NCBI GenBank assembly: GCA_902826635.1
Contig: CADEFQ010000011.1
Coordinates: forward strand, 1-64,000
Direction of reading: 5' to 3'
DNA from: an uncultured Pseudomonadota bacterium
GTDB lineage: Bacteria; Pseudomonadota; Gammaproteobacteria; Steroidobacterales; Steroidobacteraceae
DNA length: 64,000 bases
Made by a program: the position numbers and the translations under genes. Shown piece by piece: positions 1 to 3,288 of this stretch; position 1 is the first letter of the stretch, and each line of letters opens with the position of its first letter. The notes under the pieces are model-generated. The model ran no database searches. It saw only the letters and a list, made by a program, of their open reading frames with translations, and was not told the DNA's origin.

Positions 1-931
1 GCCCATCAGCGCTCTGCGCCTCCGGGGAAACAACCTCTTGAAGCTCCACAGCTAGGTCATGGTACTGGCCGAAGTTCGATGGCTTAAACAGTCGAGTCCC
101 GCGAAAGTAGTGAATTGAATCGCCACGCGTATAGCGAATCTTGGCGTTCGCATTTGGGCTCGGAGCGCTTTGACTGAAGTCCGGGTGAATTACGCCGTAG
201 TCACCAAACGCAAGAGTTCCTGACGTTCCTAATTGCGCCTGAATCTGAGCCCACAAGAGCAACTCTTGCCGGAGCACCGCGAAAGTTCCATTCACTGGGA
301 CTGGGGCAACAGTCTTGAGAGCGCTTGATCCAGCAATCGCAATAGCTCTTGGCTTAAAGCCATTTGGCCGAATAGCTAGAAAGCCCTGCGTTAGCGCGAA
401 TAGCCGTGCCGGTTTGGTGTCCCCGACATACCGAAGGTCAATAACGACATCAACCGATTCGCCTGCCAATTTCATCTGCGCTGAGCGCTCAATGATGTCG
501 CTCCACGATTGTTCCGCCTGATCGTCAAGGTCCTCGATATCTACCCGGAAGCAGAATCCCGTACCGAGTTGCCTTGCGACTGACCCGAGATCACCCCAAA
601 GCGATTCGTTCCGCTGAAACCCATATGTTGGGATGACGCTCAAGCCAGCCGCAGCTACCAGTCGGAAACCTTCGACAGTCGCGTTGACTCCGCTGGCGAC
701 AGACGCATCAGGAAGGAATGAATAGAGATCTACGTACGGCGCTACCGGCCATTTGAACTGAACAAGTTTGGCTAGTAACGCGCGAAGAACCGCGTCGGAA
801 TCGCTTGATCCGTACTCGGCGAGCTCTAGGAGCGGACGAATTGCGTTTCGCTTCGACGGATCGACATCGCCCAACGACGCAATGTCATTCCGCTTCGCTT
901 TAACGATGGGCACATAAATCGCCGCGTTCAT
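1..931 (-). CDS. Beta family protein (PF14350-like), 3' end outside window
   Basis: The reading frame opens at the ATG complementary to 929-931 and stays open to base 1, giving about 310 residues without a stop. The C-terminus lies outside the window. The N-terminus (MNAAIYVPIVKAKRNDI) matches the YvPilkaKxgE start typical of the 'beta family protein' group. A later stretch with FGDYGVIHPDF, then KIRYTRGD and YFRGTRLF, is also family-like. The biochemical role of this family is not established; members are often annotated near ImmA/IrrE-type genes and in defence or mobile regions. The start lies 8 bases after the stop of the HigA-ImmA gene, so the two are probably co-transcribed. Base composition is far less GC-rich than the rest of the window, which suggests transfer. 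Family assignment is by pattern memory, without a search. Confidence 0.72.
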   Translation of the reverse strand, partial: MNAAIYVPIVKAKRNDIASLGDVDPSKRNAIRPLLELAEYGSSDSDAVLRALLAKLVQFKWPVAPYVDLYSFLPDASVASGVNATVEGFRLVAAAGLSVIPTYGFQRNESLWGDLGSVARQLGTGFCFRVDIEDLDDQAEQSWSDIIERSAQMKLAGESVDVVIDLRYVGDTKPARLFALTQGFLAIRPNGFKPRAIAIAGSSALKTVAPVPVNGTFAVLRQELLLWAQIQAQLGTSGTLAFGDYGVIHPDFSQSAPSPNANAKIRYTRGDSIHYFRGTRLFKPSNFGQYHDLAVELQEVVSPEAQSADG

Positions 932-939
932 TATGTCAC

Positions 940-2163
940 CTAACTAAATGTCACTTCCGGAAACAGCCGCCGAACACTTCCAGACCCTAGCATGTTGGTA
1001 AACGTCCTGTAATTCCCGCTTTCAAAGTGGAGCCGCCCAACAACAATGGCGGGGTGAATACGCAGGTCTGCCGCCAGCTCCTGAATCGAATCACGAGTTG
1101 GGCTCAGAAAGGCTTTACTACGCCGCCAAATCGCCCGCGGAATGAAGGCATCCCGCGCGAGCCGATTGGCTTCCTTCTCGCGGTACTCGTCGCTCTCCGT
1201 ATGCTCGAGGCGATCCACAAACGCTTCTCGAGCCGAGGACACGTGCTTCCACAGGTGAACGCATTCGTGCAACAACGTAAACCAAAATGTATCGAGCCGA
1301 TCAAAGCGAATCGACAACCCAATCACCGCTCGCTGCTTTTCCGTCAGCAGCGCCACCCCATCTAGCTGCGTCCTCGGAAGAGCAGGTTCCACAATGAGAG
1401 TAATCCCCGCTTTGGCGAGAAACTCTCTGGCAAGCAAAGGGCCTTCGTCGAAGTAGCTCAGCCGCGCCAAATCACGCAGCACGTCGGCCGAAAAGCGGTC
1501 GGCTGTGAAGACCGGTGTTTCGGTGGCAGTCGGTTTCGCGCGTGAGAGTACGCGTCCAGTCCAGGCAAGAATCGAATACCGGTTCTCGTCCGTCAGGCCT
1601 TCACCATGCAATCGACGACGGTAGAGAGCGAACGCTGGTTCCGCAGTAATTGCCGAGAAGAATTCCTTTACGCGCTGTTCCGCCGGCCGGTCATTTACGC
1701 CTTTGATTCCGCTAAACCACCCGCGCCGTTCCATCTCCTTCGTCGGAAACTTCGTCCAGTCGATGTCATTGTCGGGCTCCAACCTACCGGACTCCTCAGG
1801 CGCTGATTCGCCCACAAGCGTCTTTGCTGGAATCCCAAGAGCATTTGAGAGTGCTCGAATCATCTGCACGGTCAGTGGACGCTTCCCCGCCAGAACCTCC
1901 GAGACCCGACTTCTGCTGCCCAATAGTGGAACAAGATCAGCTTGGCGGAGCCCCTGTTCCTCCATCCGAAAGCGAATTGCGCTAACAGGGTTCGGCGCCT
2001 CGATTGGGAAGACGCGCTTTTCGTAATTCTCGATTAGGAGGCTCAGCAGCTCAAGCCGCTCAGCCTCTGGAGTGCCGACTGCAGGATCGCGAGCAACAAG
2101 GTTCTCGACCACCGCGAGAATGGCTTCGTATTGGTCATCGCTCTTTATAACTTTGTAATCCAT
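940..2163 (-). CDS. higA: HigA-type antitoxin fused to ImmA/IrrE metallopeptidase
   Basis: The protein has 407 residues. Residues 1-60 resemble the HigA N-terminus, ending in YEKRVFPIEAPNPVSAI. Residues 62-118 form an XRE/HigA helix-turn-helix (LGSRSRVSEVLAGKRPLT). Residues about 240-400 form an ImmA/IrrE zinc-peptidase domain with HECVH at 299-303 as the HExxH motif and a likely third ligand, E331, in KEANRLARDAF. The ATG at 2161-2163 was chosen because it begins the HigA-like sequence; the frame upstream codes for nothing recognisable. The toxin gene ends 8 bases upstream. Inferred role: bind and neutralise the HigB-type toxin and repress the operon. In known ImmA/IrrE proteins the peptidase cleaves a partner repressor, so here the domain might control antitoxin stability; that is speculation. 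Low GC compared with neighbours. Confidence 0.85.
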   Translation of the reverse strand: MDYKVIKSDDQYEAILAVVENLVARDPAVGTPEAERLELLSLLIENYEKRVFPIEAPNPVSAIRFRMEEQGLRQADLVPLLGSRSRVSEVLAGKRPLTVQMIRALSNALGIPAKTLVGESAPEESGRLEPDNDIDWTKFPTKEMERRGWFSGIKGVNDRPAEQRVKEFFSAITAEPAFALYRRRLHGEGLTDENRYSILAWTGRVLSRAKPTATETPVFTADRFSADVLRDLARLSYFDEGPLLAREFLAKAGITLIVEPALPRTQLDGVALLTEKQRAVIGLSIRFDRLDTFWFTLLHECVHLWKHVSSAREAFVDRLEHTESDEYREKEANRLARDAFIPRAIWRRSKAFLSPTRDSIQELAADLRIHPAIVVGRLHFESGNYRTFTNMLGSGSVRRLFPEVTFS

Positions 2164-2171
2164 CTCAAGTT

Positions 2172-2456
2172 TTATCCATGGCGGCGCGTGTACTCGGCGT
2201 GCGTACCGACCCATTTCACAAAAACTATTCCAGCTTGGTAAGCAATCTGTGTTTCGAGTCGGTAACGATTGCCTCGCACGTTGAAGATCACAACGTTGTC
2301 TGCGAGAAAGCTTGCGGCAGAGTACCGAGCCTTGATGTCCCGCGGCGCTCGCCACACGCTGCCTTCTACGTCGTCAACCCAGTTGCTGATCCACTCTCGA
2401 CAGTCGGCGTGCCTCTCAGCGAGCGACAACAGCACTTTCTTTCCGAGTACTTTCAT
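2172..2456 (-). CDS. higB: HigB-type toxin (RelE-fold mRNA interferase)
   Basis: This 94-residue protein has the shape of the HigB_toxin family (PF09907). It contains the W-x-x-P-x-DIK segment (VWRAPRDIKARY), the core VVIFNVRGNRYRLETQIAY and the ending VGTHAEY. Family members are ribosome-dependent mRNA endonucleases that stop growth when the antitoxin is lost. The gene precedes the HigA-ImmA gene by 8 bases in the toxin-first order usual for higBA. The ATG at 2454-2456 gives the usual family length. Two dyads lie just upstream (2498-2538) and may be antitoxin operators. The family call is firm on motif grounds; activity is not tested. Confidence 0.87.
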   Translation of the reverse strand: MKVLGKKVLLSLAERHADCREWISNWVDDVEGSVWRAPRDIKARYSAASFLADNVVIFNVRGNRYRLETQIAYQAGIVFVKWVGTHAEYTRRHG

Positions 2457-2497: not shown

Positions 2498-2538
2498 TCC
2501 CGTACCGGGATTAAACGAAGTGTTCCATAATTGGGAAC
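2498..2538. promoter_or_regulatory. Candidate HigA operators: two inverted repeats upstream of the toxin gene
   Basis: Two dyads lie 42-82 bases upstream of the toxin start. The first is TCCCG-tac-CGGGA (2498-2510). The second is GTTCC-ataattg-GGAAC (2522-2538). Both have perfect 5-bp arms and similar TTCC/GGAA cores. HigA antitoxins commonly repress their own operon through such sites, so autoregulation is the natural reading. On the minus strand a TTGACT hexamer lies upstream of the second dyad and could be a -35 box, but the -10 is ambiguous. Confidence 0.45.
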
Positions 2539-2721: not shown

Positions 2722-3288
2722 TCACTTCAAGTTCATTGCTTCCAACTTCTGTCGATGTGCATCGATCATTTTCTGAGCCAAGGCCCGCTGCTCCTCTGTC
2801 ACGTCCGCAAACGCAGGAAATTTACTGTCAAAGGCACGCCGTCTTTTCTCCATGGCCGGCATCGAAATACCATCGATCATTCCGTTCACCAGAACCAATT
2901 CGAGTATCGGCTCAAATCCCGGCACTACCTCGCCGGTCTTCATGAATCGATTCAGCAGCCAGAGATACGTGTCCGTTATCTGTAGCCCGAACGATTGAAC
3001 ACTCTCTTGAATCTTCAATTGCGCTTCGAGAAAGTGGCTAATTAGCGCTCCCGCGTCCTCGCGAACATCCGCCAAAAATGGATGCGCCAAATATTCAACC
3101 CTTTCGTTTCCGTTGCCTCCTAGTGCCGCCGCCAATTTTGACTGAATTTCGCATGTCTTTACCTGAGCACCATTGAACTGAGTCTGTCGATCGACTGTTA
3201 TGCCACGAGCTGGTATACGCGTCTCGATTTCACACTCAGTGCGCAGTCGAATGCCTGCCCAGGCAAGCATTCGTCTCACTCTTGACAC
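2722..3288 (-). CDS. Hypothetical protein, 188 residues
   Basis: I do not recognise this protein. It reads as soluble and mixed alpha-helical, with no signal peptide or membrane segment. The C-terminal third is charged and helical (KRRRAFDSKFPAF, then RALAQKMIDAHRQKLEAMN). The start is uncertain: a GTG at 3286-3288 opens the frame and an ATG at 3268-3270 would shorten it by six residues. It lies on the same strand as and 265 bases upstream of the toxin gene, in the same low-GC segment. It may therefore belong to the same acquired block. The frame is coherent and lacks the repetitive Arg/Ala composition of shadow frames. Confidence 0.5.
   Translation of the reverse strand: MSRVRRMLAWAGIRLRTECEIETRIPARGITVDRQTQFNGAQVKTCEIQSKLAAALGGNGNERVEYLAHPFLADVREDAGALISHFLEAQLKIQESVQSFGLQITDTYLWLLNRFMKTGEVVPGFEPILELVLVNGMIDGISMPAMEKRRRAFDSKFPAFADVTEEQRALAQKMIDAHRQKLEAMNLK

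Follow-up and report, generated by a model that had tools for sequence, protein, structure and literature searches.

The three genes at the start of the window (the whole stretch of DNA analysed here, 64,000 nucleotides) are identified by their sequences as a PD-Lambda-2 anti-phage operon, which makes the unit an already known kind of system and not a new one. It appears to be a little-studied version of PD-Lambda-2 in which the toxin-like first gene seems not to have been damaged, and we consider it fairly likely that this canonical-HigB subtype works as a switchable toxin–antitoxin (TA)-like abortive infection system by the mechanism proposed below. The genes, referred to as A, B and C, follow one another head to tail on the minus strand within bases 1–2456 (Table 1). 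The A/B and B/C spacers, read directly together with the start and stop codons, are 8 bases each (AACTTGAG and GTGACATA). A sequence-only reading made earlier had described three genes in the order HigB, HTH-M78 and Beta with 8-base gaps, and the coordinates, the Pfam matches and the codon check bear this out; the peptidase and HTH that it had seen in B are likewise present, with HECVH at residues 299–303 and a match to HTH_3. It had also called the DNA low in GC, which holds relative to its own genome (55% versus 68%) but not in absolute terms. The unit has a GC content of 55.3% compared to 68.0% for the remaining window, and none of 288 windows of equal size is as low; for this reason the unit fits an acquired island. 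Upstream of the operon, this low-GC stretch also holds a 188-aa frame (2722–3288, minus strand) with no Pfam match, and no tRNA was found in the window. Contig C11 ends at base 1 and thereby truncates gene C, of which 310 aa are present and about 65 C-terminal residues are missing, so that C may not be intact. When the assembly itself was searched for the missing 3′ end, the best match was not significant (E 0.14).

Table 1. Genes and predicted regulatory features of the unit, in window coordinates.
Feature	Position	Strand	Evidence
Gene A, HigB-like protein, 94 aa	2172..2456	minus	PF09907, E 8e-23; PADLOC PD-Lambda-2_A (PDLC03981), E 7e-42
Gene B, Xre-type HTH + M78 (ImmA/IrrE) metallopeptidase, 407 aa	940..2163	minus	Pfam; PADLOC PD-Lambda-2_B
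Gene C, Beta protein (PF14350), first 310 aa	2..931	minus	Pfam PF14350, E 3e-32; PADLOC PD-Lambda-2_C
Putative -35 box TTGACT	2547-2542	minus	Alignment with relatives
Putative -10 box AACACT	2524-2519	minus	Alignment with relatives
Operator-like palindrome 1, GTTCCCAATTATGGAAC	2522..2538	minus	Between -35 and -10; aligned relatives and family-wide count
Operator-like palindrome 2, TCCCGGTACGGGA	2498..2510	minus	Exact TCCC-N5-GGGA match

All three genes match the PADLOC models for PD-Lambda-2 in the right order: A matches PD-Lambda-2_A (Table 1), B matches PD-Lambda-2_B (PDLC03982) with E 4e-157 over 398 of 402 positions, and C matches PD-Lambda-2_C (PDLC03983) with E 5e-96 over 301 of 374 positions, the rest lying beyond the contig end. 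The layout is also that of PD-Lambda-2, as the genes are on the same strand and practically touching, with 8-base gaps and the same order in the relatives. PD-Lambda-2 has been detected across many genomes. The system was found in a functional selection in E. coli, where it stops lambda by abortive infection; B is toxic on its own, A counters this toxicity and rescues the cells, and C is dispensable for the neutralisation, whereas defence against lambda vir requires it (Vassallo et al. 2022, PMC9519451). The proposal of the sequence-only reading, a tripartite anti-phage system with an essential third gene, was right in outline, as shown for E. coli PD-Lambda-2. Its assignment of HigB as the toxin and the HTH-peptidase as the antitoxin is the reverse of what the E. 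coli measurements gave, and its view of Beta as a protein without an established function has been overtaken by the finding that lambda defence requires C (PMC9519451). The window unit shares with PD-Lambda-2 the gene order, the three families, the HTH-M78 fusion and Beta as the third gene. It differs in that window A keeps the GTHxEY end of HigB, whereas the E. coli-type A examined here lacks it, and in that window C is incomplete. Furthermore, window B is only ~47% identical to E. coli-type homologues; therefore, the roles may differ in the window unit. In a literature search that left preprints and most subscription journals outside, we found no paper from after 2022 on the mechanism of PD-Lambda-2, and none that treats PF14350 as a module.

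The first gene sets the window unit apart from its E. coli counterparts. Window A belongs to the HigB family by sequence, with its PF09907 match and an alignment of the solved E. coli-type HigB structures 5ifg/5ycl over residues 3–89, and it keeps the C-terminal motif whole (NVRGNRYRLE...GTHAEY; the family motif is FNxxGNxYRL ... GTHxEY). The motif is lost from every A in a 32-row clade with Pantoea, Enterobacter and E. coli strain C, the last assigned to the clade by near-identical DNA, and both E. coli versions of A that we examined lack it. Outside this clade, 22 of the 24 Beta-bearing loci keep the motif, as does the window. These comparisons suggest that A in the motif-lost branch is probably no longer a nuclease, which would offer a simple reading of why A acts as an antitoxin in E. 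coli. HigB in the branch of the window may still be an active mRNA interferase. One could instead suppose that B, as a toxic protease, is the sole effector in the window subtype too, with A purely its inhibitor and HigB catalysis irrelevant. Such roles are those measured in E. coli PD-Lambda-2 (PMC9519451), and A stays paired with B throughout the clade after the motif is lost, so it must have a role there other than that of an RNase. However, the retention of the motif in nearly all Beta-bearing loci outside the clade and in the window suggests selection for HigB function, and we regard B as the only effector here as rather unlikely. Motif-intact and motif-lost HigB form a natural pair for asking which protein does the damage. 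E. coli strain C, which is widely used in laboratories, has a complete PD-Lambda-2 in which HigB has lost the motif (L224:8041-10655); the unit is flanked on one side by a resolvase-like recombinase gene and on the other by a SIR2 gene adjoining a tyrosine integrase.

In gene B, Pfam finds HTH_3 and Peptidase_M78, each with E 2e-6. Residues H299, E300, H303 and E329 are identical in 91 of 91 B proteins, with or without Beta, and E329 is a candidate third metal ligand by comparison with the M78 family. A profile of B run over bacterial genomes gave the 80 nearest loci, 79 of which have HigB directly upstream of B and 54 of which have Beta directly downstream; another 22 have room downstream but no Beta, and four more are cut by contig ends. 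The A-B-C order is, on this comparison, not due to chance, because the same order is found in 54 of these 80 loci. A-B also occurs as a two-gene form, and the 22 HigB-B loci without Beta argue that A-B has a role of its own. A common substitute for the third gene in Beta-less loci was considered and rejected, the downstream genes scanned at L061, L063, L064, L066 and L067 being mutually unrelated. When 95 B proteins were placed on a quick tree, the presence of Beta required 7 changes, compared to 29.7 for shuffled labels. The clade of the window (99% support) comprises 49 B rows, 45 of them with Beta, and no row of a separate group of 24 has it, apart from one row cut by a contig end. Judged from this tree, Beta is an inherited part of one B branch and not a chance neighbour.

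These data also bear on the possibility that the unit is a plain HigBA type II TA pair, in which A would be the only toxin, B the antitoxin and Beta a hitch-hiker, serving element maintenance or a stress response. The intact C-terminal motif of A, its match to solved HigB toxins and the many A-B loci without Beta would all fit such a pair. In contrast to HigA, which is small and has no enzyme domain, B has 407 aa with an invariant M78 HExxH metallopeptidase site; moreover, the published PD-Lambda-2 roles are reversed and C is required (PMC9519451), and Beta is retained in nearly the whole clade of the window. A plain TA pair is, in our view, improbable. That the unit is a decayed island remnant with a broken C, no longer working, would agree with C running off the contig, with its 3′ end not being found elsewhere in the assembly and with low-GC DNA beside a contig break, which is typical of a mobile or repeated region, but none of the three reading frames is interrupted before the contig end, and A, B and C retain their conserved residues, so we consider it very unlikely.

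A consensus promoter scan found no promoter. The assignment in Table 1 comes from an upstream alignment of the window with its three nearest relatives, which points to two boxes and two palindromes, one of them between the boxes. Allowing at most one mismatch, the palindrome TTCCCAnnnTGGGAA (TCCC-N5-GGGA) is present upstream of higB in 86 of 93 loci, compared to 2.7 in shuffles; the exact TCCC-N5-GGGA form is present in 61 of 93 distinct upstream regions, compared to 0.13 in shuffles. Given the HTH of B, these palindromes are putative binding sites for B itself. A short overlapping frame (2475-2416, minus strand) begins with an ATG at 2475, just upstream of the HigB start and in another frame, and has a better-placed GGAGG; short frames of this kind also seem to be present in L072 and L074. 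It is a possible leader frame or means of translational coupling.

To model Beta, we used the Collimonas relative L073, with a model built on 54 relatives, and obtained a predicted (β/α)8 TIM barrel with a mean pLDDT of 94.1 and a pTM of 0.93. The best solved Foldseek matches are TIM barrels with modest scores, and VIA-align matched the model to tRNA-guanine transglycosylase with Z 13.7 over 287 residues at 4.6 Å, tied with aldolases and other barrels. The tied matches therefore support the fold and name no specific function or ligand. Comparison of Beta with PDB sequences gave nothing significant, and viral contigs scanned with window Beta alone gave no matches. The most strongly conserved residues, D71, R132, D169, R225 and D248 (L073 numbering), are located at the C-terminal ends of strands or just beyond them. 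In TIM barrels, these strand ends form the catalytic or ligand face. The likeliest role of Beta would be that of a ligand sensor or an enzyme triggering B.

In the mechanism that we favour, A and B would be made together and form a silent complex, and the HTH of B would bind the TTCCCAnnnTGGGAA palindromes over the promoter and keep the operon repressed, as the conserved operator suggests. During infection, Beta, a predicted TIM barrel with a conserved charged pocket, would receive a signal and change the state of the zinc peptidase of B. The unleashed proteolysis, either of B itself or of cell proteins, would then release the block on the effector, and growth would stop before any phage is produced. 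As others showed for the system, in the E. coli branch it is B that does the damage, and the degenerate HigB only restrains it; in the branch of the window, HigB keeps the family motif, so that mRNA cleavage by HigB probably still contributes. A signal in the form of infection or DNA damage has a precedent by analogy, since ssDNA activates the M78 peptidases PprI and CapP (PMC10904395).

We compared the unit with other known systems. Like window B, PprI/IrrE-DdrO and CapP-CapH join an M78 peptidase to an HTH regulator with an operator, and the capP/capH models match related M78-Beta loci weakly. In those systems, the peptidase and the repressor are separate genes controlling other genes, whereas the window has one protein that sits in a TA-like operon with Beta. 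RosmerTA (RmrA in PADLOC) also has an HTH-M78 protein in a TA-like defence pair, with weak cross-matches of related loci, but window B matches only PD-Lambda-2_B in PADLOC and not RmrA. The toxin-antitoxin-chaperone systems HigBAC and CmdTAC resemble the unit in having three genes, HigB/HigA-like proteins and a third gene that is needed; the third gene of the window is, however, Beta (PF14350) and not a SecB-like chaperone. Finally, gop-beta-cII of satellite P4 has a toxic first gene and a published defence role (Rousset et al. 2022, PMC9122126), and P4 Beta and window C are of the same family. P4 has no M78 gene, a convergent cII (sce7726) and, before beta, Gop, a small membrane-like protein with an N-terminal hydrophobic stretch, whereas the genes upstream of Beta in the window are HigB and HTH-M78 and not gop. 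The idea that P4 Gop might be an M78 peptidase was dropped, as it has no Pfam M78 match.

Starting from Beta, a different neighbourhood emerges. In a phylum sample of 398 genomes, PF14350 has 16 matches in 13 genomes, with an M78 gene adjoining 11 of the 16 and HigB only 3; Beta is therefore coupled to the peptidase and not to HigB. The sequence-only reading had proposed, as a check, conserved adjacency of Beta with the HigB and peptidase genes, which holds from the side of B, where Beta is the usual neighbour (54 of 80, plus the four cut loci), but not from the side of Beta, where HigB is in the minority. Other first genes before M78-Beta encode a GNAT protein (L056 and the prophage contigs L187, L191, L196 and L204), a DUF4917 protein with a weak SIR2-like match (L055) and DUF6932 (L048, with L233 looking similar by sequence); one- or two-segment membrane proteins stand beside a short M78 and Beta at L050, L053, L054, L057, L059 and L236. 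Since Beta follows M78 genes with such varied first genes, M78-Beta looks like a constant switch with exchangeable effectors, and Beta looks like a widespread sensor-like family paired elsewhere with many different candidate toxins. With slightly more doubt than confidence, we propose that M78 and Beta together act as a general switch that senses infection, can be transferred and has repeatedly been combined with different effectors (HigB, GNAT, DUF4917, DUF6932 and small membrane proteins), often with a convergent sce7726 gene; that PD-Lambda-2 and P4 gop-beta-cII may be two branches of one defence superfamily; and that HigB may have turned into a pure inhibitor in one clade while remaining the ancestral toxin in the branch of the window. 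The M78 peptidase, Beta and the operator stay constant, and the first gene can be exchanged or may be left without its toxin motif, which predicts that Beta and the peptidase are the sensor-switch. This comparative picture is of more interest than the window unit itself. It ties PD-Lambda-2 to P4 gop-beta-cII and points to GNAT-M78-Beta in prophages, DUF4917-M78-Beta and membrane protein-M78-Beta as further candidate systems.

The GNAT-like operons with M78 and Beta on viral (prophage) contigs lie at L187:877-3491, L191:5087-7716, L196:1-2603 and L204:5030-7664, those of L191 and L204 with an extra small Xre gene in front, and we found no literature on GNAT-M78-Beta operons on prophage contigs. 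In genome G440, M78-Beta is duplicated in tandem behind a membrane/coiled-coil gene (L236:4596-8694).

Most non-HigB loci have a convergent gene of the sce7726 family, to which P4 cII belongs, at the 3′ end of Beta, as do at least 10 HigB-type entries among those listed, two of which are the same locus. In the phylum sample, sce7726 is above the cut-off in 13 genomes and faces Beta in 10 of them. The proteins have an invariant E, D and ExK, and their model (pLDDT 89.8) is most like 3dnx, with weaker matches to several nucleases; we read them as PD-(D/E)XK-like. The convergent gene is apparently a fourth component common to Beta loci and P4 cII. A search of the window's own assembly gave no sce7726 match, the window DNA ending inside Beta. 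The gene is likely absent from the window locus, whose 3′ side lies beyond the contig end, because L073 and L074, its nearest relatives with a complete C, do not have it. A sce7726-family gene with the E...D...ExK pattern touches or overlaps the 3′ end of Beta at L104, L106, L129, L131, L132, L138, L145, L150, L169, L187, L191, L196, L204, L232, L233 and L239 and in P4 (L071). Strong sce7726 matches are also present in genomes G014, G392 and G259 (L241, L243 and L244), which have no Beta match in the phylum sample.
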